NCBI GenBank assembly: GCA_009193035.1
Contig: SWDT01000274.1
Location: forward strand, 17,310 to 81,309
Direction: 5' to 3'
DNA length: 64,000 nucleotides
Source of the DNA: Halicephalobus mephisto
Lineage: Eukaryota; Nematoda; Chromadorea; Rhabditida; Panagrolaimidae
Both the position numbers and the translations under genes were made by a program. The notes beneath the pieces are model-generated. The model worked only from the letters and a program-made list of their open reading frames with translations, was not told the DNA's origin and did no database searches. Below, piece after piece: positions 13,229-32,952 of the stretch. Numbering within the stretch: position 1 is the first letter of the stretch; every line of letters begins with the position of its first letter.

Positions 13229-16200
13229 TTATCTGTAGCCCGCGGGCCTTCCGGACATGTTAAGTCTGTTGGTTTGGGAAACGAGATCCATGTGAACATC
13301 CTTGAGGTCTACATACTGTTTCATGGCAAACTGGAAGTGACAATGACCCTTGGAAGTAAGTTCGACTTTGTTGTTCTTGATCGTCACGACTCCCCTCAAT
13401 CTAGGATCGTTCTTTCCCAGGTAATCTTGGAAAATATTGGCAACATTGGTTGTCACTGGAAGGACTAATACACCATCCTTCGCTCTGAAATCATTCACAG
13501 ATAAATCGCATTACTGTAAAAAAAAAGTTTGTAAAATTGCTTCGACACGGATCTTCTAGAATTTCAAAATTTGTAGTTTTAGATGTTTTAAAAAGTTCTT
13601 ATTGGATCTTAGAAAATTTAAAAAAATCCATAAGAGATTCTAGGAGGCTTCAGAAGCTTGGGATTCTGGAAATTCATACAGAATCCTGGAAAGTTCCAGA
13701 AGTTTGGAATTTTAGAAGGCTTCTGGAACTTTGATGAGATTTTCGAAGACTTCAGAATCTCTTATTAGATTCCGGAAATTTATAGAATTCTAAGCAACTG
13801 TAAAAATTTCCTCCAGATTCCGGAAGGTTTCTGAAATTTTTCCAAAATTCTAAAAATTTCATGATTCTTGACAATTTTGAAATCTACTGAATTTTAGAAA
13901 TTTTCAGAAGTCCTCATGAGATTCTAAAAGTTTTCAGAGTAATTCTATTAAATTTCGGAATTTTTTACAGAATTCTAGAAAGTTTCAAAAATTTTCATGA
14001 AATTCTTAAAAAATTCAAAAATTTCCAAAATACTTTGAAATTTTGGAAGATTTTTAAAATTCCGGAATTTAGTAAATTTAAAATTGTTAAAATTACCGTT
14101 TTATAGAAATGGTAACCATGCCGAAGAGAGTCGAAACCAAATGATACGTCCCACGGTAGCTCAGTTCTTCGATTACGATAGAAGCTTCGGTTTGGCTCCC
14201 GGAGTTGACGATGATGTTGCTGTCAACGCTCCAAGTGAGGATTTCGGATTTGGTGTTCTCAGTTAAGGAATTAAAATGAACTTCATGTTTGAATCCTGTT
14301 TTCAATTCTGCGATTTCACAGGGGGTCTTCAGGGTGAGTTCTGCTTCGGCCCCGAACATGAAGCCCTGCTCCCTGACGACCCCGCAGATACTTTCGCTCG
14401 TTCTTTCTGTCTTCAAAGAGTACGATTGAGCTTGAGAAGTACTGTTGGTGAAAACCGATTTGAATACAGTATTCGGACGGATCCCTGTTTGCTGAATATT
14501 TGAATAAACAGGTTCTTCATGAGTCAGCACTAGTCGTTTTCTGTTCTGTAAAATTCGAATTTCGAAATTGTACTATTTTAAAAATTAAAAATAAACATTT
14601 TTATGAAATTTTAGAATTGTCTAAAAACTTTTCAAATTAAAGATTTCAAATACTCTGGAATTATAAAAATTAAAAACAAATTTTTTTCGCGAAATGGTCT
14701 CAACACGAAATTTCAAAAACCTTAAAATTTTTAGTTTTTGAAAATTTTTTTACTCAATTCTGGAAGATTATATGAAACTGTAATTACAGTATTATAAAAG
14801 TTATAATTTTTTCTACAAAATGGTCCTAAAAAGAAATTTCAAAAACCTTAAAATTTTTAATTCTCAAAAATTTTTTTACTCAATTCTGGAAAATTCTAGA
14901 AGTTTTTATGATGTTCTAATTACAGTATTATAAGTTATAATTTTTTCTACAAAATGGTCCCAACAAGAAATTTCAAAAACCTTAAAATTTTTAGTTTTTG
15001 AAAATTTCTTTACTCAATTTTGGAAAATTCTAGAAGTTTTTATGATGTTCTAATTACGGTATTATAAGTTATAATTTTTTCTACAAAATGGTCCCAACAA
15101 GAAATTTGAAAAACCTTAAAAATTTTTTACTCAATTTTGGAAAATTCGAGAAGTTTTTATGATGTTCTAATTACGGTATTATAAAAGTTAAAAATTAAGT
15201 TTTTAAATGGTCTCAACACGAAATTTTAGAATTTCTTAATGTCTAAAATAACATATGTAATAATTTTAATTTTGTATAATAATTATTTCATAATAAACCG
15301 TACTTTTATAAAAATTAAAAATGAACTTTTTAATGAAATTGTCTCAACGAATTTCAGTGATTTTCTAAAAACTAAAATAAACCGTAATTTTAGTTTTTTT
15401 GTGATTTTACGTTGTTTCGTAATTAAATTTTTTGGAATTTATTTTATCCAGATGAATTTAGAAATTTATAAAATATAATATATAATATATAAAGTATCTG
15501 ATTTTATATATTTTCGAAAATTGAAGATTAAATGTGAAAATTTCACGGATATTTTTGGATCGTGCACCTGTCGGCTGTTGTCTCCAACGACATTTGCTCT
15601 CTTTTTTCCGCAAGATTTACTTTGTTTTTATATTATTTTTATATTATTTTTTTATAATTAAATTAATATTTTAGTTAAGAAAAAATTAATTTAAAAAAAA
15701 TTCAAAATCAGTGAAAATTGGAGAACAAATATCGCTAGAAAACTATGCAACATTTGTTTCCTCTTTTCAGAAAGATTTACTTCATTTATTTCGTTTTTTT
15801 AAATTTTTTAATAATTAAATTTATTAAATATCTCAGTTAAGTAAGAAAAAATTAATTCAAAAAAATTTCGAAATCGGTAAAAAATTGGAAAAACGAAAAA
15901 CAGGGAACAAATATCGCTGGGGGCAGCTGACATACAGTACACCCGACCATACAGTATACCTGGCCGTTTGAACGCAAGTCCACATCATGCTGGCCCTGAG
16001 GGGAAATACCCTGAGGCTAACGATTGTGAATAAGTGGGAAATTAAGAATATTGTGAAATTATTATTAAAATTTTTTTGTTTTTTTCTCATTTCTACGTGG
16101 ACCAGAAGTCCCGCCACGATCTAACAGATATTTATAAACGCCGACTAAGACCAAAATGACCCCCGAAAACGAGTTACTTTACTTTTAAGAAAAAACTTGT

Positions 16201-17912
16201 TCAACAAAGGCAGAACTAAGATAAAGAAACCCCACTGAGCCGATTTTCCATTGACCTTGGACTCAGAATCGAAAAATTTAAAAATGAATAAACACTCAAA
16301 AGTGTAGGATATTCTTTTTGACTTTTCTCTCGAATCTCCAAGTGCCATTCTTTCGTTTTTATTGAAGAATATTAAAAGGACCAACACGAGTCAAAACATT
16401 GATCGAGGATCGACGATAACTCCGAAAATTCCGAAAAATCTGATTTTATAGATGACCTCATTTGCCCCGACCTTTTCATTTAGCATTTTTCCGAAAAATC
16501 ACACAATTGTAAAAATCAAAAAATGGAAATTGTTACAGAATTTTTTCAAAACAAATTTCTAGAATCTTTTAGAATTCAAAATTTTCATAGATTTTCGAAA
16601 ATAATAAAAATTTGCATTTGATTTTGGAAGGATCTAGAAATTTTCAAGGTTTCAGAATCTTCAGTTGGATTCTGGAGACTTTGGAAAATTTTATTTAATT
16701 TTTAAAAAATTCTAAAAATCTCCAGAATCCTCTTTGTTGAAATCTGAAGATTTCTGAAAATTTTTATTTAATTTAAAAACATTCTAAAATATTTCGTAAT
16801 ATTCTAAAAATCTTCAGAATTCTAAAAATTTTTATTTAATTTAAAAATATTCTAAAAACTCCCAAAATTTTAGAAAATTTTTAAAATGCTCTATTAGATT
16901 CCGAAAACTTTTATTTTATTTTCGAAAATTCCGGAATATTTCAAAAGTTTTTGTTTTAAAAAATTCTAAAAATTTATGATTCTAGAAAATTTCGAAAATT
17001 TTAAAAATTTTACTTTTTATTGAATTCTGAATTTTTCGAATGTTTCAATTTTTGATTAAATTTCGAATTTTTGTATAATTTTTACATAAATATAATTTTC
17101 TTAATATAGTACTTTTGAAAATTGGCAGCTAGAAGAAAAATGAAATTGTCAGAAAAATGTGGAAATCGATACTTTTTAAAGCTTTTCGAACTATTGTCCA
17201 AGAAGGTTTTCAAAATTGAAAACGACATTTCTTGGGTTAAAAGAAAGCAGATGGAAAAATGGCAATATGTTGTAAAAAATAAAAAAATTATATTACAAAA
17301 AATAAAAATAAAATTTTTACAAAATAAAAAAATTATATTACAAAAAATAAAAATAAAATTTTTACAAAATAATTTTGAAACAAATTTTTTAAATTTAAAA
17401 ACAAATTATAATTTTATAAAATTTCGAAGTTTATTATATTGTAAAAAATAAAAATAAAATTTTTAAATTTAAAAAAAATTTATAATTTTAATTTTGTAAA
17501 ATTTCGAAATCAATAATATATTAAAAATAAATTTTTAAAACTTTTATCCTAAAATTTTAATTATTATTTTTCACTTAATTATGTATTAAAAACAGAAATA
17601 AATTTTTTAAAAATAATTTTAAAAAAAAATTTTAAAAATAATTTTCAGAAAATTTTAGGAATAGTAAAAACTTACAATTACGAAATCGACTTCTTCTTTT
17701 TTAAGTCCTTTGAACTGATCCAGACCGGAATTTTTGATACTTTTCATGTCTTCGAAAATCCTCCAGGCATATTCCTCGAGCAAAGCGTCCACGTCGACGT
17801 GTTTCTCGACTGCAGCTCCAGAAGTGCCCTTAGTGGGGGATCCTGGAGCTGAATACGGGTTCCTCGAAGGCGAAGCCGTTTTGTATACTGTACCAAGTTT
17901 CTGGAAATTCAT
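13229..17912 (-). CDS. Aerolysin-like (ETX/MTX2 family) putative pore-forming protein
   Basis: Four exons keep phase: 17676-17912, a 36-base micro-exon 15960-15995, 14097-14545 and 13229-13484, for about 325 residues, the usual size of ETX/MTX2 proteins. The third exon shows the family hallmark: long beta-strand stretches with alternating Ser/Thr and polar residues (SVFTNSTSQAQSYSLKTE), a GFMFGAEAELTL strand pair, a Pro turn, more Ser/Thr-rich strands (the insertion hairpin region in relatives), and a closing GTYHLVSTLFGMV strand. The N-terminal 79 residues are unlike known receptor-binding heads I can name. No signal peptide is visible at the chosen start, so export would need an upstream exon or another route. 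The frame is unbroken. Introns are 612, 1414 and 1680 bp and full of AT-rich repeats, unlike the short introns elsewhere. Family membership is by pattern; activity is unknown. Confidence 0.7.
14690..15215. repeat. Tandem repeat of about 120-134 bp inside an intron
   Basis: A unit beginning AAATGGTCYCAACACGAAATTTC and ending in a TACGGTATTATAA-like word recurs at about 14693, 14818, 14952, 15086 and 15206, roughly 4.5 copies, within the second intron of the aerolysin-like gene (14546-15959). The core CTCAACACGAAAT also occurs singly elsewhere in the window. Confidence 0.75.
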
Positions 17913-20007: not shown

Positions 20008-21365
20008 TTATATCAAGTTTTCTTTAGAACAACCATAAGAAGAAACACAAGAGAGTGATTTTTCGTCGAATTCTTCCTTAGGAGGACAATGAATACGGTT
20101 AGGATCTCCATACAAGCATCTGTAGAAACGTGTGCAACTTTCTGGATCAGCAAAGGCTCCTTTCTCACTTGGACAAGTAAATTCTGAAATTCAAAAAGCT
20201 TTAAAAATACTTTCTCAAACAGTTTACCATCAATTGCATCGGTGTTTAATTCCTCTAGATATGTCTTGATCGAATCCACTATTGGGTATTCGCCTTCACC
20301 ACAGATTCCGTTGAAATCATCTAAATCAAGACTCCATACAAACGCCCCTCCGAACCCATTTTTTTTAGCCCAGTGCATCTTTATTCTGATTGATTCAATA
20401 TCATCATATCCATACCACAGATCATCGCTGACCATATATGGTACTTTCATGGTATCATCCCAGAACCTCTTTCCTTTCAGTTTACAGAGTTCATAATAAG
20501 CTGCAGTTTCCCCTTTTGCAGTGTATATCTGTTTTGCACTCTCTTCTTTTTTCGGAGCCCCAATTACTGTATTGTTGGGATCTGCTAGTTTCCATCCTAT
20601 TCCAAAAGTGCCAATTCCCATCAGGATTTTCTCCTTCGGCATCCCCTTCTCCGCCCAGTAGCTGAGAGCAGCAGCTGCACTCCAATTATCAGAATCGTTG
20701 TTGGAAGAATACAAAGAACTATGGTGATGAACTCCAGGTTTCGAATTTGAGTACATACTATATGTTTCTACATCGATGTAATCTACCGACTCAGCCAAGG
20801 AATGAACATCATACACAGTATCGATAACGGATTTTTTGGGACAAACAGCCAGTGTGATGATTTTGTTTCCAGCAGCAGTTTTTAGTTCCTTCATAAACAA
20901 TGCGAAATTGGTCTTGATGTCCGATATATTGAAGATCCATTCGATATCAATGCCATCAAAATTATACTGATCGATAAGTTCAATAGCAGAATCAATAAAT
21001 TTTTTTCTGTTTTCTGGATTCGAAAGCAGTTCTTTTTTTTGGATGTCATTATAAAAACGAAATATGAAGGAAAGGCTAACCTTTAATTCAGGCTGCTTCT
21101 CTTTCAATTTTACGACGCTTTCAAAGTATCCACTTCGGGGTCCATCGGAGAGGTCAGTGGAATATATAGCATTTGCGGTGTAGGTATTGTTTGCAGTTCC
21201 ACCAGTGTAGAATATATGAGTACACAAACCAGGAGGGTAGTTTTTAGGGTCGTAATTAGCGGGGGATGGACGGCGCTGGGCCCAGCTAGCAATATAACAT
21301 CCTCTGATATATGTTGAGCCCACTGTCGGAGAGATTGTTAATAGGAAAAATAGAAAACTGTTCAT
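20008..21365 (-). CDS. GH18 chitinase-like protein with C-terminal CBM14 chitin-binding module
   Basis: Exon 20228-21365 and exon 20008-20183 join in phase across a 44-bp intron, giving about 437 residues. A signal peptide (MNSFLFFLLTISPTVGS) precedes one GH18 domain (TYIRGCYIASWAQRR ... GGAFVWSLDLDDFNGICG), and the second exon encodes a six-cysteine peritrophin-A/CBM14 module (FTCPSEKGAFADPESCTRFY onward) ending CSKENLI. GH18 enzymes need DxxDxDxE; here plus-strand 20934-20957 encodes DGIDIEWI, so the catalytic Glu is Ile and the protein is predicted not to cleave chitin but could still bind it. C. elegans has a comparable family of catalytically altered chitinase-like (chil) genes induced by oomycete exposure (established knowledge); whether this gene belongs to it is inference. 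The 5' flank is almost identical to that of the gene starting at 26140. Confidence 0.9.
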
Positions 21366-22179
21366 CGTTATAATTCACCAAAGTAGGAAAGTTCGTTTTT
21401 TAAATCAATAAATCTTAATGATTCCGTCTTTTGGACGATCATTATTGACATTTGTTTCTTCATTAGAAAAACTTCCATCTCCAAAGACGTCTAATGTAGT
21501 TGTTCAAGAAATTACACGATTGTTCGTTTTTCAGAATTTATTTTTCATAGTCTAAATTTTCAAACAAATAGTCATTTACTTTCCAACCTTATTTCAGTGA
21601 TGAATAATTATTACATTGTAAACCATTCTGTTCAACCATAGAATTTTTGACATGTATATTTATAGATTTCGACAGAATATCGAACATGAGTAAACGGATC
21701 TGTACTTTTGATTCAAAGTTAAGAGTTTGTCTATAGAATTCTGCATAGAATTGGAATTTGAAAATAATTTTTGAATAATCTTTAATTTTTCATAATTTTC
21801 TGAACTCATCATGAGTGTTATTTGGAATTGTTCTTTAATTACTCAAGTTTCAGTAAACGGTTTCTCAAAAGTAAAAATGAATTCTTGAAAATGGTTCTTC
21901 AGAAAACTAATTTGTGATAAAAATTGTGAAAAATTATGGAAAACGTTCCTAAAATCATCCTGATTACTGTATTCTCTTAGGATAACTCGAGTATTACAGG
22001 ATGAATCATAAGTTGCCTTTATTATGTACAAGACAAATGATCCTTCGATTTTAATAAAAATTAAAAGTAGAGGATGCATTTCTGAAGATATTATTTAAAA
22101 AGATCCTGACGTCTGCAAAGTATATTCAAATCTTGTGTTCTGTATTTGTGTACATTCTGGAGACTCCTTGGATTTGTGT
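21366..22179. other. Intergenic; contains duplicated promoter block
   Basis: Bases 21420-21563 are nearly identical to 26200-26340, both ending about 55-60 bases upstream of a GH18 start codon. The remainder is AT-rich with no supported gene. Confidence 0.75.
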
Positions 22180-22389
22180 TCAATAGACATTGTCCCAGAT
22201 CCTAATGCCCTCTTCCATAAACTCCAAGGGTTCATCGTTCAGTAATGAGTCAATCATTATGTCTCCCTTAAAAAGTTGTTCATAACCGTCTATACTATAT
22301 TGTATAATTGGGTAGATATCCCCTATGATGTGATTAATTTTTAAAGCATTTATCATTTGCTTGCTTAATAAATCACTTTGTAGGTTCAT
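22180..22389 (-). CDS. Short uncharacterised ORF, 69 aa
   Basis: A true ATG frame begins 10 bases after the stop of the three-domain GH18 gene and encodes an acidic 69-residue product (MNLQSDLLSKQMINALKI ... EFMEEGIRIWDNVY) without signal or membrane segment. It may be a real small gene, an exon of something else, or a chance frame in the 3' UTR. Not recognised. Confidence 0.25.
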   Translation of the reverse strand: MNLQSDLLSKQMINALKINHIIGDIYPIIQYSIDGYEQLFKGDIMIDSLLNDEPLEFMEEGIRIWDNVY

Positions 22390-22398
22390 TCGCTCACA

Positions 22399-25300
22399 TC
22401 AGTATCTTTCAGAACAACCATAAGCAGGAACACAAGATAGTGTCTTTTCATCGAATTCTTTTTTTGGAGGACAGTGAATACGACTGGGACGATTGTACAG
22501 ACATCTATAATAACGTGTACAACGCACAGGATCGGGAAAGGTGCCTTTCGGACTTGGACACGAAAATCCTGAAATTAATTTTGAAATCTTAAAAATACTT
22601 TCTCAAAACCAGTTACGTTCTAAATATCTTTTAACTGCTTTTGTTAATGGATACGTTCCATTGCCACAGATTCCGTTGAAATCATCGTAATCTAGAGTAT
22701 CTACAGACACTCCTCCAAATTCGTTTCTTATAATCCAGTACATCTTTAGTTTGATAGATTCATCATCATCATATCCGTACCAAAGATCATCGATGACCAT
22801 ATACGGTACTTTCATATTGTTATCCCAAAACCTTTTTCCTCCAAGTTTACAGAGTTCATAATAAGCTGCGAATCCACCTTCATGACTATATACCTGCGTT
22901 GGAAGATCTTCTTTTTTCGGAGCCCCAACGACTGTGTTATCGGGATCTGCCAGTCTCCATCCTTTCCCGAAAGTGGCAATTCCCATCAGGATTTTCTCCT
23001 TTGGCATGCCTTTCTCCACCCAGTAATTGAGAGCAGCAGCTACATTTACATCATAAGAATACTTTTCACGAGGATATAAAGAACTGTGATGCTGAACACC
23101 AGAATTAAAGTTTGAGTACATAGCAAGGGCTAGCACATTCACGAAATCTACTACCTTAGCTAATAATGAGACATTGTATATATTATCAATAAACTTTTTG
23201 TAAGGTGAAGCGCTCAGGGTAAGGAGTTTCTCTCCAACAGCAGCTTTTAATTCCTTCATAAATAATGAAAAATTTGCCTTGATATCCGATGTAGAGAATT
23301 CCATATCAATATCAATGCCATCAAAATCGTATTGATCAATAAGTTTAACAGCAGAGTCGATAAACGTTTTTCTGTTTTCTGGGTTTGAAAACAGTTCTTT
23401 TTGTTTGGTAGAATTGACATTACGAAATATGAAGGAAAGACTGACCTTTAATCCAGCTTGTTTTTCTTTCAACTTGATGATCCTTTCAAAGTATCCACTT
23501 CGGGGTCCATTGGAGAGATCAGTGTAATCCATGACTTTCCCGGTGTAGTTATCATTCATAGACGCCCCAACATAGATTATATGGGTGCAGAGTCCAGGAA
23601 CATAGTTTTCTGGATAAAACTCAGCAGAAGTTGGGCGATTACGAGTCCAACTGAGCACGTAACATGCTCTTATGTATTCTGAAATCGCTTCCGAAGCTTT
23701 TAAGGTGTTTTTTAAAAAAATACTCACGTTCATTCACCTCTTCCAATGATATAATTGTATTGTTGTCCGTTTCTTCAGGAGCTTCAGTTACAATAGTGTA
23801 CGCTTCTTCAGGAACCTTGGTCACGTCAGTGTCTAATTCCATAGAAGATGTAGTCACATTTGTGTCTAGTTCTTCGAGATATGTCTTTATTGTTTCTGTC
23901 AATGGATACTTCCCTTCGCCACAAATCCCGTTGAAATCATCCCTTTCAAGAAGCCATACGAATGCTCCTCCGAACCCGTTTTCCTTGATCCATTCCATCT
24001 TTAGTTTGATTGACTCAACGTCGTCATATCCGTACCAGAGATCATCGCTGACAATATAGGGCACTTTCATAGTATCCTCCCAAAATCGCTTTCCTTCTAA
24101 TGCACAGATTTCATAATAAGCTGCGAGTCCACTTTCATTTGTATATGGTTGTATCGGACGATCTTCTTTTTTCGGAGCCCCAATTACTGTGTTATTGGGA
24201 TCTGCCAGTCTCCATCCTTCTCCATGACTGGCAATTCCCATCAGGATTTTCTTCTTCGGCATCCCCTTTTCTACCCAGTAGTTGAGAGCAAAAGCTACAT
24301 TTACATCGTAGGGATCCCTTTCACGGGAATATAAGGGACTGGGGTGTTGAATACCAAGTTTCAAACTTGCGTAGATGTCATAGGTTTTCACATTAACGAA
24401 ATCTACTATCTCAGCTAAGGTAGAGACATCATATGCATTATCAATCACGTATCTGTAGGGTGAAACATGCAACGTAACGATTTTGTCCTTAACAGCGGCT
24501 CTCAATTGCTTCATAAACAACGTAAAATCTGTTTTGGTATCTAATGCACTGAATTCCCACTCAATATCAATACCATCGAAATTATATTCATTGACAAGTT
24601 CAACAATAAAATAAATAAAATCTTTTTTAGTTTCTGAACTTGAAAGCAGTTCTTTTATTTGTGTATCATTGAAACCATCAAATTGGAAACAAAGACTGAC
24701 CTTCAATCCAGGTTGCTTCTCTTTCAACTTCACAACTTCTGCAAAGTATTCATTTTGGGATTCGTCGGTGAATTCAGTGGAATTCATAGCTTCTGTAGTG
24801 TAGTTTTCATTCACAGTCCAACCAACATAGAATATATGGGTACATAGACCAGGGATGTAATTCTGTAGGTCATAAGAAATGTTAGTTTGATTGGAATAGG
24901 TCTTTCCGTTGATGTAACATGCTCTTATATATTCTGAATTCACTTTAAAAGTTTTCAAGATATTTTTGTAAAATCAACACTTACCTTTATTTGATTCTTC
25001 AAGAGAGTTAGTCCCATCACTGCTTTCATTCTCTAAATACTTTTTCACCACTTTTGTTAAAGGGTATTTGTTTTTACTACAAACTCCGTTGAAATCGTCG
25101 CAATCTAAAGTCGAGACGAACGCTCCTCCGAATCCGTTTTCCTTGATCCAGTGCATCTTAAGTTTGATTGACTCAACGTCATCATACCCGTACCAGAAGT
25201 TACCACTGACTATATACGGTACTTTCATGGTATCATCCCAGAACCTCTTTCCTTCCAGTTTGCAGATTTCGTAATAAGCGGCAAATCCAGATATATTGGT

Positions 25301-26140
25301 GTATTTTTGTGGAAGAGCTAAGTTTTTTACAGGAGCTCCAATTCCTTTTTCTTCGGGATTTTTAAGCATCCATCCTCTTCCATGAGTGTTAATTCCCATC
25401 AGGAGTTTATTTTTTGGCATTCCTTTTTGTGCCCAGTAATTGAGAGCATAAGCTGCATTCCAATTTGAGGAATCACTTTTGGGGGAATATAGAGGACTGT
25501 GATGGTTGACTTTAGGCTGCCATCCCCAATAGTAATCAAAGGTCCTCACATTTACGAAATCCACTGATTTGGCCAAAGAAGACACATCATATCCAGTATC
25601 AATCACGGACGGCTGGGAGAAAACGGTTACCGTAATCGTTTTTCCTCCAGAAGCGGCTTTCAATTCTTCCATAAACAGTGCAAAATTCGCCTTGTCGTCT
25701 GCATCTGGATACAACCAATCAATTCCAATGCCATCGAAATCATTATAATTGACGATGTTAATAGCGGAGGCGATAAACTTTTTTCTGGATGTGGAACTTG
25801 AAAGCAGTTCTTTTATCGGCAGATTAAAATTTACTCCATTCCGGAAGGAAAGGATGACCTTCAATCCAGGTTGTTTTTCTTTCAAACTAACAACATGATT
25901 AAACTGTGAAGTATTTGATCCATGGAGGTCAGTGATGTAAACAACGCCTCCTGTGTAATACTTAGTAACGATCCCGCCGATGTACAATATGTGGGTACAT
26001 AAGCCAGGAATATAATCTTCTGGATGGAAATCAGCAGGAGGTGGACGATCCCGAGCCCAACTGTTGAAGTAACATGCACTTACATATTCTGAGTTTATCG
26101 AAGGAAATATTAACAATAGAAAAAGTAAAAAATACTTCAT
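22399..26140 (-). CDS. Secreted protein with three tandem GH18 domains and a CBM14 module
   Basis: Four exons keep phase: 24985-26140, 23728-24942, 22617-23678 and 22399-22568, separated by introns of 42, 49 and 48 bp, for about 1200 residues. A signal peptide (MKYFLLFLLLIFPSINS) leads into GH18 domain 1 (about residues 20-370), domain 2 (about 388-735), a Thr/Glu-rich linker (EELDTNVTTSSMELDTDVTK and on), domain 3 (about 792-1143) and a six-Cys CBM14 module (about 1146-1200). Catalytic motifs differ: domain 1 DGIGIDWL, domain 2 DGIDIEWE, domain 3 DGIDIDME. Only domain 3 keeps all four acidic residues of DxxDxDxE. No stop separates the domains, and only the first has a convincing signal peptide, so I read one gene. 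Three separate genes is the alternative. Role: chitin binding or limited chitin cleavage outside the cell. Confidence 0.8.
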
Positions 26141-28290
26141 TGCGATTTACTAAAATGAGAGAGTTGGTTTTTAAATCGATTCATTTTCTCGGTGATTCCG
26201 TCTTTTGGACGATCATTATTGACATTTGTTTCTTCATTAGAAAAACTTCCATCTCCAAAGACGTCTAATGTAGTTGTTCAAGAAATTACACGATTGTTCG
26301 TTTTTCGGAATTTATTTTTCATAGTCTAAATTTTCAAACAGATATCCGATTTCGACGAAATTACTGAATAAAGAATTTTAAAAAACTTATTTTATTTTTA
26401 AAAATAAACTCATTTTTTTATTTTATTTCATTTTTAAAAATAAACTCATTTTTTTTATTTTATTTGAAATGGATCTAATTTCGAAAAATTAAAATAATTT
26501 TCTACGATAAAATTTTATCAACTAAATAAATTTGAGAATTTTGAGTAATTTTGAAATTTTTCTATATGTACTTTTGGTTTCGTCAAGTGACGATTAGATA
26601 AAGTTTCGTTCAAACTAAAAAGAAAAAATTATTCGACGTGGCGTTCTGGGGAAAAATCATTATGTAACTTATTTGATGTATATTTGTAATCGTTAAAATA
26701 AAAAATAGTAATTTTTACTAGAATAAAAGGAAGATAAAAATTTAGATATTTCTTCCCACATAACTACAGTCAAAAGTGTTATTTATGGCTTACAGTATTC
26801 CATATCCCCTGATATTCAGGCTATCGTTTTATGTCTTTTTAGTTTAGTTTTCTATCTCAACAGTAACCTAATAATAAATAAAATTATATTGATTAAAAAT
26901 TAATTATTATGATAGCAAATAAAATCACAATAATCATCTTTATTAGCACAATAAGACACAGATAAAAATTTATGCATTTTTTCCCACATAACTACAGTCA
27001 AAAGTGTTATTTATGGCTTACAGTATTCTACATCCCCTGATATTCAGGCTATCGCTTTAAATTCTTTCTTTCTAGCATAGCTTCTGTCCCTACAGTAATC
27101 TTTATTTAATTTTCGACGAATATATTTCTAAAATAAGAAAATCAGATAATTACAAAGATTTAATATATCGAAAATCGAAAAAATTAAACAAAGTCGCTTA
27201 TTAGGTCAACGAGCATTCAATAAGCTATTTTTAAATTATTTATTTTTATTTAATTAATTTCAATAATTCGTTTTATTAATAGGTATATTTTTTCATCATT
27301 TACAGTTATCTAGGCAGTTCCTCAAAAAACATTTTAAAAAATGAAAAAGCAAGTGTCCAGATTTACAGGTTTTTCAGATTATCTCGTTTCAAAAAGTGTT
27401 TAATAGAACTAGATTACATATTTTGAATGTACTTTTAAAAAAAATTGAATTTGATATATGAATACTTTTCAAAGTTTATTTTGGATAGTGACTTTTTGTA
27501 GGATTCAGGTTTTTTATTAGTTGCTTTTAGAAAAGTGTTTAATAAAACTAGATTACATATTTTGAATGTACTTTTAAAAAAAATTGAACTTGATATATGA
27601 ACCTTTTTGAAAGGTTTTTTGAGTCAAGTGTTTCTTAAAACGGAAAACTAGAATTTCGGACAAACTTTATTTTATCCGTTTACAATTCTCAGTAATTTAC
27701 TTTATTTATTTTCAATATAAACTTCTCCTAAATTTTGTTTTTTGAAACTTTTTTTTGAATTTTAATTTTTTGTAAATTTTACAAATTTCATTTTTGAATA
27801 AAAAATTTCCCAAAGATTTACGACATTCAGAAATGGAATTCTATGATAAAAATTGAATTATATTGCAAATCTAGGTTGTAATAAAAACTGACATTCGGGG
27901 ATTTTTAGGATTTAGTTGGCATCCAACTCCTCGATTTTCAAAAATCCTAAAATTTTGCACAAAATATTTCAAATTCAACTCTGATTTTGTATTTTTATAT
28001 TCCAACTTCTTAGTTTTCTAATTTAAATTAATTAGAATTTGATTTAAATTTAATTCAGAAGATTTAAGTAAATTCAAAATTTTATTGTCGATCGAGCTAA
28101 AACTAACATTTAAATTTTCGCGCCAGTTGGATTTGTGTGCAGATGGATGTTTGGCCTTTTGTCTAGACTGCGAGTTGTCTTTCCAACGAAACTCGTGCAT
28201 TTTGTGCTACGTTGCCTATCTTTCGGTTTTCGTTTTGAACAGACGGTGTTCGTTTGCTTGTAATTTGTTATTTTCAGGCAGATACGGGAG
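26141..28290. repeat. Intergenic; duplicated promoter and direct repeats
   Basis: Bases 26200-26340 copy 21420-21563. A block of about 80 bases beginning CCCACATAACTACAGTCAAA occurs at about 26756 and again at about 26986 with few changes. A second direct repeat containing AACTAGATTACATATTTTGA occurs at about 27408 and 27546. Short tandem copies of TTTTTAAAAATAAACTCATT lie at 26395-26460. Near 28280 a TTTTCAG lies 14 bases before the epg-3 ATG and may be a spliced-leader acceptor. Confidence 0.7.
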
Positions 28291-30707: not shown

Positions 30708-32952
30708 ATGGATTCTGAAAATGTTCTAGCAAGAATTGGAAAGCTTCATGCTACTGGTTTGTTTTTAAATTTGTTAAAAATTCGGAGGTTTTATTGAAAA
30801 ATAAAGATTCTAAATATTAAAGAATTTTATTTTTTAAAAATTACGAAATTTTAAATATTAAAAAAAAATAAAAAGTTTAGGTATTTAAAATTATAATTTT
30901 TGTTTAATTTTTAAATTTTATTTTTTAAATAATTACGAAATTTTAAATATTAAAAAATAAAAAGTTTAGGTATTTAAAATTATAATTTTTTTAAATTTTA
31001 AATTTTATTTTTTAAAAATTACGAAATTTTATTTTTTAAAAATGTGAAATTTTATTTTTTAAGAAATTTAAAATTTTGTTTTAAATTGCGGAATTTTTTT
31101 AATTAAAAATTTCAGATATTTTGCCTCAGGGCAATAACTGGGAAGCTACTTGTGATTTTTTAAAGTCCGTGGTCGAAATCCTTCTGGATTATATAAAAGA
31201 AGAAAATGATCGAAACAGTAAAATTCTGGATTTTCATCATCCGGAGGAAATGTTGAAAATTTTGGATTTAAGTATTCCTGAAAAACCGATGAATTTGGAA
31301 GAATTATTGAATTGTTGTAAAAAAGTTTTAAAATACAGTGTAAAAACTGGTCATCCAAGATTCTTCAATCAGATATCTTGTGGATTGGATCTGATATCCA
31401 TGGCTGGAGAATGGCTGACCGCAACTGCGAACACGAACATGTTCACTTACGAAATTTCTCCTGTTTTTATTCTTATGGAAAAAGAAGTTACAAAAAAAAT
31501 GATTGAATTAATCGGATGGAATTCTGATGAAGGTGATGCAATTTTTACTCCAGGAGGAGCCATTGCGAATCTGTACGCCATGAATGCGGCTCGTCATCAC
31601 CACTACCCCAGAGCGAAGCCCCTGGGGATGTCCGAAGTTCCGACGCTTTGTTGTCTGGCTTCAGAAGACAGTCATTACTCCATCAAAAGTGCTGCTGCTG
31701 TCTGCGGAATCGGAACAGATTATTGTTTCACGATTCCGACGGACAAGTTCGGAAGGATGATTCCGGAAGCCTTGGAGCAGAAAATTCTCGAATGCAAAAA
31801 AGACGGATTTCATCCATTTTTCGTGAGTGCCACTGCCGGGACTACAGTATACGGTGCATTTGATCCGTTGCCAAAAATCGCGGATATATGCGAACGTCAC
31901 AAGATCTGGTTCCACGTGGACGCGGCCTGGGGGGGTGGTTTGCTGCTGTCTCCAGAATACCGTTACAAGTTGTCCGGGATCGAGAGAGCGAATTCCGTGA
32001 CTTGGAATCCTCACAAACTCCTAGGAGCTCTTCTACAATGCAGTATCTGTTTCATCCGTCACGAGGGCCTTCTGTTCCAAGCAAACCAGATGTCCGCGGA
32101 TTATCTTTTCCAACAAGACAAACCTTACGACGTCAGTTACGATACCGGGGATAAAGCTATGCAATGCGGACGTCACAATGACATTTTTAAATTCTGGCTC
32201 ATGTGGCGTTCCAAAGGCATGGAAGGCTACCGTATCCAGATCAACAAACTCATGCACTTGGCCGCTTACTTCACGGACAGGATTAAGAGAACTGAAGGTT
32301 ACGAAATCCTCATAGAAAAAGTACTTTAATAAATTTATTTTATTTTAAAGTTAATTATTATTTTTAGCCCGAATATTTGAACATTTGCTTCTGGTACGTT
32401 CCTCCAAGTATCCGCCATCTGGAGCCGGCAGAGAAGAATGCCCGTCTGGAAAAAGTCTGTTTTTTTACGAATTAAAGTTTTTTAAAAATTCTAAAATGCA
32501 AAATTTCCAGATTTTTATAGAAATTTTAAAAATATTCCAAAACATAATAAATTTAAAAAATTTTTTAAATTATTTTAAAATTTAAAATTTTTAAAATATT
32601 CTAAAATTTAATAAATTTTGAAGATTTTTGAATTTTATTGAAATTTTTGGATTTTTTTAATTTTCTAAAATTTGATTTTTTTAAATATTTGAAATTTTGA
32701 ATTTTAAAAATTCGTTTCGAAATCAATTTGTAAAATTATTTTTAAACTTTGTAACTATGGAAAAACTGTTATTTTCAGATTGCTCCGAAGATAAAAGCCA
32801 AGATGATGCAGAAAGGAACGACAATGGTCGGTTATCAGCCAGACAAGAACAAACCGAATTTTTTCCGGATGATAATCTCCAACCAAGCCATCACTTACGA
32901 GGATCTGGATTTCCTCATCGACGAGATCATCGAAATCGGCAAAGATTTATAA
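30708..32952 (+). CDS. unc-25: Glutamate decarboxylase (GABA synthesis), UNC-25
   Basis: Exons 30708-30756, 31116-32320, 32368-32454 and 32779-32952 join in phase to 504 residues; C. elegans UNC-25 is about the same length. The enzyme converts glutamate to GABA and CO2 with pyridoxal phosphate in GABAergic neurons. Key residues are visible: the PLP-binding lysine in [17 protein letters not shown] (Lys about 317), the stacking His in [11 protein letters not shown] (about 203), the Asp in [11 protein letters not shown] (about 285), and the substrate-loop region [37 protein letters not shown] and [20 protein letters not shown] are near-identical to UNC-25 as I remember it. The short first exon ([16 protein letters not shown]) is followed by an AT-rich 359-bp intron. 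The C-terminal exon begins at IAPKIKAKM and ends IGKDL. Related CSAD is less likely given these motifs. Confidence 0.95.

Follow-up and report, generated by a model that had tools for sequence, protein, structure and literature searches.

In Caenorhabditis elegans, LIN-24 is an aerolysin-like protein with links to stress, immunity, and the cytotoxic death of Pn.p cells, and LIN-33 is its genetic partner. The accessible part of one review (PMC12945463) describes LIN-24 as pathogen inducible, with indirect roles in immunity and starvation, working via host pathways without direct killing of bacteria; gain-of-function alleles of lin-24 are cytotoxic. Here we describe the corresponding gene of the nematode Halicephalobus mephisto, which lies within 64,000 nucleotides of contig SWDT01000274.1 (the whole stretch analyzed, here called the window; GC content, 33.7%). 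A first-pass annotation had read it as a patchily distributed, possibly acquired gene for a defence or digestive protein. By sequence comparison, the gene is the orthologue of lin-24 and unremarkable within a known family. We hold it highly probable that this orthologue, present once as far as searched, encodes a 313-amino-acid protein that has the aerolysin/ETX_MTX2 fold and is apparently not secreted, that the family is probably of early bilaterian age and was inherited by descent, and that the protein is a putative, normally inactive pore former. Support comes from the gene structure, the family, the fold of a close relative's model, the pattern and conservation of a hairpin, the grouping with Caenorhabditis, and the distribution. 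The gene model is corrected, and the story of transfer gives way to one of descent.

The ETX_MTX2-family gene is on the minus strand, running from 17912 to 13229 with GT-AG introns. Three exons (17912-17676, 14545-14097, and 13484-13229) splice at these sites to give a 313-codon frame ending in TAA. A 36-base micro-exon was also proposed; since it is not a constitutive exon (see below), the gene has three exons, a product of 313 amino acids, and introns of 3,130 and 612 bases. The features are as follows.

17676-17912, minus strand: exon 1, with the start codon, a variable N-terminal tail, and the conserved N-terminal helix (HVDVDALLEEYAW); based on translation, the GT donor, and alignment with relative P0001 from residue 1
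14546-17675, minus strand: intron 1, 3,130 bases, phase 0, GC 0.22; contains tandem arrays as well as dispersed repeats
15960-15995, minus strand: the proposed micro-exon of 36 bases, not accepted as constitutive; the stretch is intronic and overlaps a dispersed repeat
14097-14545, minus strand: exon 2, with the bulk of the ETX_MTX2 domain
14270-14353, minus strand: candidate amphipathic insertion hairpin (GAEAELTLKTPCEIAELKTGFKHEVHFN), codons of residues 144-171; based on alternating pattern and conservation
13485-14096, minus strand: intron 2, 612 bases, GC 0.27
13229-13484, minus strand: exon 3, with the C-terminal strands, the C-terminal tail, and the stop codon TAA

The GC content is 0.45 in every exon, compared with 0.22 and 0.27 in introns 1 and 2. 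Together with the GT-AG introns and the SL1-like RNA genes of this genome, the contrast upholds the earlier view that this is a spliced gene resident in a nematode nuclear genome.

Halicephalobus sp. NKZ332 provides the nearest protein (89% identity over 283 columns). The window protein belongs to the same family as C. elegans LIN-24 and to the same branch as the Caenorhabditis rows, and it has the conserved N-terminal helix and the hairpin in common with LIN-24. The two differ in length (313 versus 271 amino acids), the panagrolaimid protein having longer variable N- and C-terminal tails; its function is taken here by analogy. The only PF03318 match in the H. mephisto genome (59.9 Mb, 331 contigs) was the window gene. 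Neither a second PF03318 gene nor a Romanomermis-type gene was found in this genome, where a Romanomermis query finds only the same exon at E values of up to 10.

Assignment to the ETX_MTX2 family, as first proposed, is borne out by both profile search and structure prediction. A 325-amino-acid protein model that included the micro-exon was used for the Pfam search, the sequence search of solved structures, and the first homolog search; the 313-amino-acid model was used afterwards. The sole Pfam match of the longer model was ETX_MTX2 (PF03318; residues 115-255, 35.9 bits, E value of 8.9e-9, curated cut-off of 22 bits). The structure model of P0001, an 89%-identical relative, has an aerolysin-type fold, with an elongated beta-rich domain matching solved aerolysin-type structures. 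Its closest solved folds are bacterial ETX_MTX2-type proteins (2d42, Cry23Aa, and Cry51Aa; 13 to 14% identity), from which the animal LIN-24-type family differs in having its own conserved N-terminal helix motif. For Dln1, the lamprey immune protein, and the Bombina aerolysin-like protein, the alignment covers only P0001 model residues from about 86 onward. Dln1 and the lamprey immune protein bear a separate sugar-binding part.

Strand alternation was also above chance. Between residues 81 and 300, 15 ten-residue windows pass the chosen score, versus a mean of 2.6 in 500 residue shuffles (one of them as high); eight start at residues 141-148 and seven at 268-275. The pattern was originally described as Ser/Thr alternating; the clearest stretch, FGAEAELTLK, instead sets Glu/Thr/Lys against Ala/Leu. 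The candidate amphipathic insertion hairpin, at about residues 144-171, is conserved more strongly than any other part of the protein (conservation, 0.93). It is present as a sequence pattern, with a low-confidence tip in the P0001 model.

The first-round search returned 55 proteins; all 46 with an organism name were from nematodes, and 9 had no name. The named relatives span many nematode groups, contrary to the supposed patchy distribution, at least within this phylum. An alignment search (117 proteins), which scored only the 7,995 candidates with most words in common, added further nematodes (e.g., Soboliphyme), Priapulus, and the leech Helobdella. A third search (69 proteins, of which 7 were organism named, all animals) added Romanomermis, Lingula, Dreissena, Argonauta, and Ptychodera. 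The non-nematode relatives thus comprise a priapulid, a leech, a brachiopod, two molluscs, and a hemichordate; many of the unnamed rows are short metagenome pieces that may be single annelid exons. ETX_MTX2 matched 16 of the 20 members of the first mixed alignment (A2) at an E value of 0.01, leaving 4 without a match. Among the non-nematode rows of alignment A3, 23 of 23 match ETX_MTX2, although the 19.5 bits of the hemichordate fall short of the 22-bit cut-off. When compared with each other, the nematode (A4) and non-nematode (A3) profiles aligned over 247 columns (probability of 100%, E value of 6.8e-56). The hemichordate model (pLDDT, 86.5) has an N-terminal helix and then long strands, in a similar order of elements.

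These data incline us to a reading in which LIN-24 represents, within nematodes, a family as old as the Bilateria. Its members would be non-secreted aerolysin-fold proteins that share a conserved N-terminal helix motif (D[VI][DE] and then a [YW]A-type end), and they would occur in priapulids, annelids, brachiopods, molluscs, and hemichordates. If so, animals would hold an ancient intracellular aerolysin-type pore former, with a logic like that of gasdermins and apart from the secreted venom and immune aerolysins. Further, a genetically studied worm gene for cell death and stress would be connected with counterparts in several other phyla of animals, opening their functions to comparison. No statement of a bilaterian spread of the LIN-24 type was found in the literature searched, in which journal coverage was incomplete.

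A tree was built from 56 rows (the window protein plus 55 of 147 protein ids); the choice, made beforehand, excluded short metagenome pieces resembling exons and some partial or redundant nematode rows. The window protein groups with NKZ332 and Panagrolaimus and then with plant-parasitic and other nematodes. One starred branch (100/100) holds 24 nematode rows, the window protein counted, plus two unnamed rows. The free tree has three changes of nematode label, and the starred branches force at least two. A single nematode clade was not rejected: holding 28 rows together (three of them unnamed and added after the tree was seen) cost 3.0 log-likelihood units (p-AU of 0.263). As far as an unrooted tree with no bacterial outgroup and the sequence searches can indicate, the family probably dates back to early bilaterian animals and came down to H. 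mephisto by descent. Separately, P0120 (Romanomermis) and P0069 group with the non-nematode members, apart from the other LIN-24 proteins of nematodes; candidate explanations are slow evolution, loss in other nematodes of an old second gene, and tree error.

Acquisition by recent transfer, one way to read the earlier suggestion, is not sustained by the tree or the searches: the closest relatives are from nematodes, the other named relatives are animals, and none of the organism-named matches of the three protein searches was bacterial. A scan of GTDB with profile A2 likewise gave 28 pattern matches and no relatives, using two peptide patterns only and thus blind to distant kin. An older event, in which a bacterial ETX_MTX2 gene entered an early animal or early bilaterian ancestor and was then inherited vertically, is a distinct though unlikely possibility. 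It would fit the closest solved folds being bacterial crystal and epsilon-type proteins, and the accessible text of a paper on the snail biomphalysin favours transfer for animal aerolysins (PMC8047071); the same search and GTDB negatives speak against it.

We infer pore formation, its target membrane, and its trigger as follows. The protein would be held as a soluble, inactive monomer until, by analogy with C. elegans, starvation or infection triggered its oligomerization. The conserved hairpin might then insert into one of the membranes of its own cell to form a small beta-barrel pore. Such a pore could shift the ion or endolysosomal balance and so switch on stress responses, while uncontrolled activation would lead to cell death. 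That pore formation has been lost, leaving a cytosolic scaffold or sensor that keeps the old fold, seems to us rather doubtful. Two points agree with such a role: the N-terminus is not signal-like (the best 12-residue hydropathy mean within about the first 60 residues is 0.52, hydropathy alone being a weak test of a signal peptide), and LIN-24 acts via host pathways without direct bacterial killing, according to the portion of PMC12945463 cited above. Against the loss of pore formation stand the hairpin, which is the best conserved part of the protein and keeps its alternating pattern, and the cytotoxicity of the gain-of-function alleles described in the same portion.

Several points weigh against our reading of the gene as a lin-24 orthologue encoding a dormant pore former. 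The gene model was drawn from genomic sequence and homologs. Orthology was judged against Caenorhabditis LIN-24-type rows other than full-length C. elegans LIN-24. Two entries each exist for A. besseyi (P0007 and P0021), D. destructor (P0008 and P0023), and A. nanus (P0017 and P0032), so a single copy is claimed for the H. mephisto genome only. The free tree puts Romanomermis (P0120), with an unnamed row, outside the other nematodes. As for the fold, the structure model is that of P0001 and not of the window protein, and its hairpin tip (residues 160-166) has a pLDDT of <50. The top Foldseek TM-score was 0.52 by query length, with a root mean square deviation (rmsd) of 7.0. The sequence search of solved structures found no relative (four chains, best E value of 0.6, all unrelated), and the hemichordate model has a helix near the position of the hairpin tip. 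LIN-24 itself is described as lacking a solved structure, its membrane insertion being uncharacterized, in the accessible part of PMC12945463.

The 36-base micro-exon at 15960-15995 was ruled out as a constitutive exon by ungapped homologs, poor residue matches, and overlap with a dispersed repeat. Its junction is spanned by 47 of the 55 first-round homologs, 44 of which cross without a gap within 8 residues; the flanking residues are contiguous, EVDFVI being followed directly by NRKRL. The three homologs with gaps near the junction are P0032 (gaps a few residues off), P0055 (a distant row, gapped in several places), and P0053. The last of these carries 16 additional residues at the junction, the first V and the last Q, and they may represent an unspliced intron of 48 bases at that position. 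No ungapped match to the micro-exon's 12 residues exceeds 5/12 anywhere in the 55 homologs or 6/12 among all 147 proteins gathered. A genome search with 15880-16450 gave 25 matches, including itself; those at C87, C327, and C63 overlap the micro-exon itself (query positions 456-491), and the C87 match (61 bases, 85% identity) takes in 32 of its 36 bases.

Micro-exon-like in-frame stretches are common in intron 1, yet its GC-richer part exceeds a simple Markov model. Stop-free, phase 0 AG..GT stretches of 15 to 90 nucleotides number 59, versus an order-1 Markov mean of 31; those with CAG..GT number 21, versus 3.3, and those with TCAG..GTA number 5, versus 0.43, with 29% of 300 draws having one or more. 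A genuine, rarely used cassette exon adding 12 residues ahead of the first core strand is in our view very improbable: the stretch is in frame, without a stop, and has a TCAG acceptor and a GTA donor, and against this stand the homolog, repeat, and frequency data just given. In two database nematode LIN-24 models, P0047 and P0051, the N-terminus is unrelated as far as the exon 1/exon 2 junction, which suggests wrong first exons or alternative starts.

Least credible of all is that the lineage recently gained a secreted toxin for defence or digestion. The resemblance in fold to secreted toxins would fit, but orthologues are spread across the nematodes, other phyla have relatives, and the N-terminus was not signal-like in the weak hydropathy test. 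On the same hydropathy result, the digestive role suggested earlier is not supported. The suggested defence role is partly apt by analogy, given the pathogen-inducible, indirect part in immunity and the role in starvation reported for C. elegans LIN-24 in the available part of PMC12945463.

Intron sizes of 0.6 to 1.7 kb were initially given and are replaced by 3,130 and 612 bases for introns 1 and 2. Both are long relative to the introns of 42 and 44 nucleotides in an ADP/ATP-carrier-like neighbour (family Mito_carr), the sole neighbour gene measured, as the first-pass annotation had noted of the neighbours generally. By contrast, intron 2 is ordinary for the genome, because the mean H. mephisto intron is 473 bp according to the accessible part of PMC6872716. 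The description of a long, repeat-bearing intron fits intron 1, which has a 134-base tandem array at 14692-15127, other tandem arrays, and repeats found elsewhere in the genome. The piece with the 134-base array had 53 further genome matches (31 at 66 to 73% identity and 22, mostly short, at 76 to 90%), a likeness that may be partly compositional because the matches are AT rich. The region 15880-16450 is a GC-richer island of intron 1 (GC 0.37) carrying fragments of dispersed repeats that recur at other genomic sites.

The search for SL1-like RNA genes in the H. mephisto genome gave 47 matches among 50 scored candidates (best, 49 bits), all under the Rfam gathering score of 75. The consensus leader of Rfam is unchanged in both genes shown as alignments. 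L005 (1501-1602) and L006 (1501-2005) contain such SL1-like RNA genes with the consensus leader and scores far under the gathering score; L006 holds two copies about 300 bases apart on opposite strands, and the genome has further such pairs. Within the window, scans with Rfam at the gathering score and for tRNA gave no matches in either case.

Other genes in the window include, on the minus strand at 20016-26146, a tandem cluster of GH18 (chitinase-like) genes, each a long single frame, with Glyco_hydro_18 in all three frames scanned. A fourth frame of the cluster (23642-24973) has a similar beginning, as judged by its start alone. On the plus strand, 31103-32326 is a long pyridoxal-dependent decarboxylase frame (398.5 bits).
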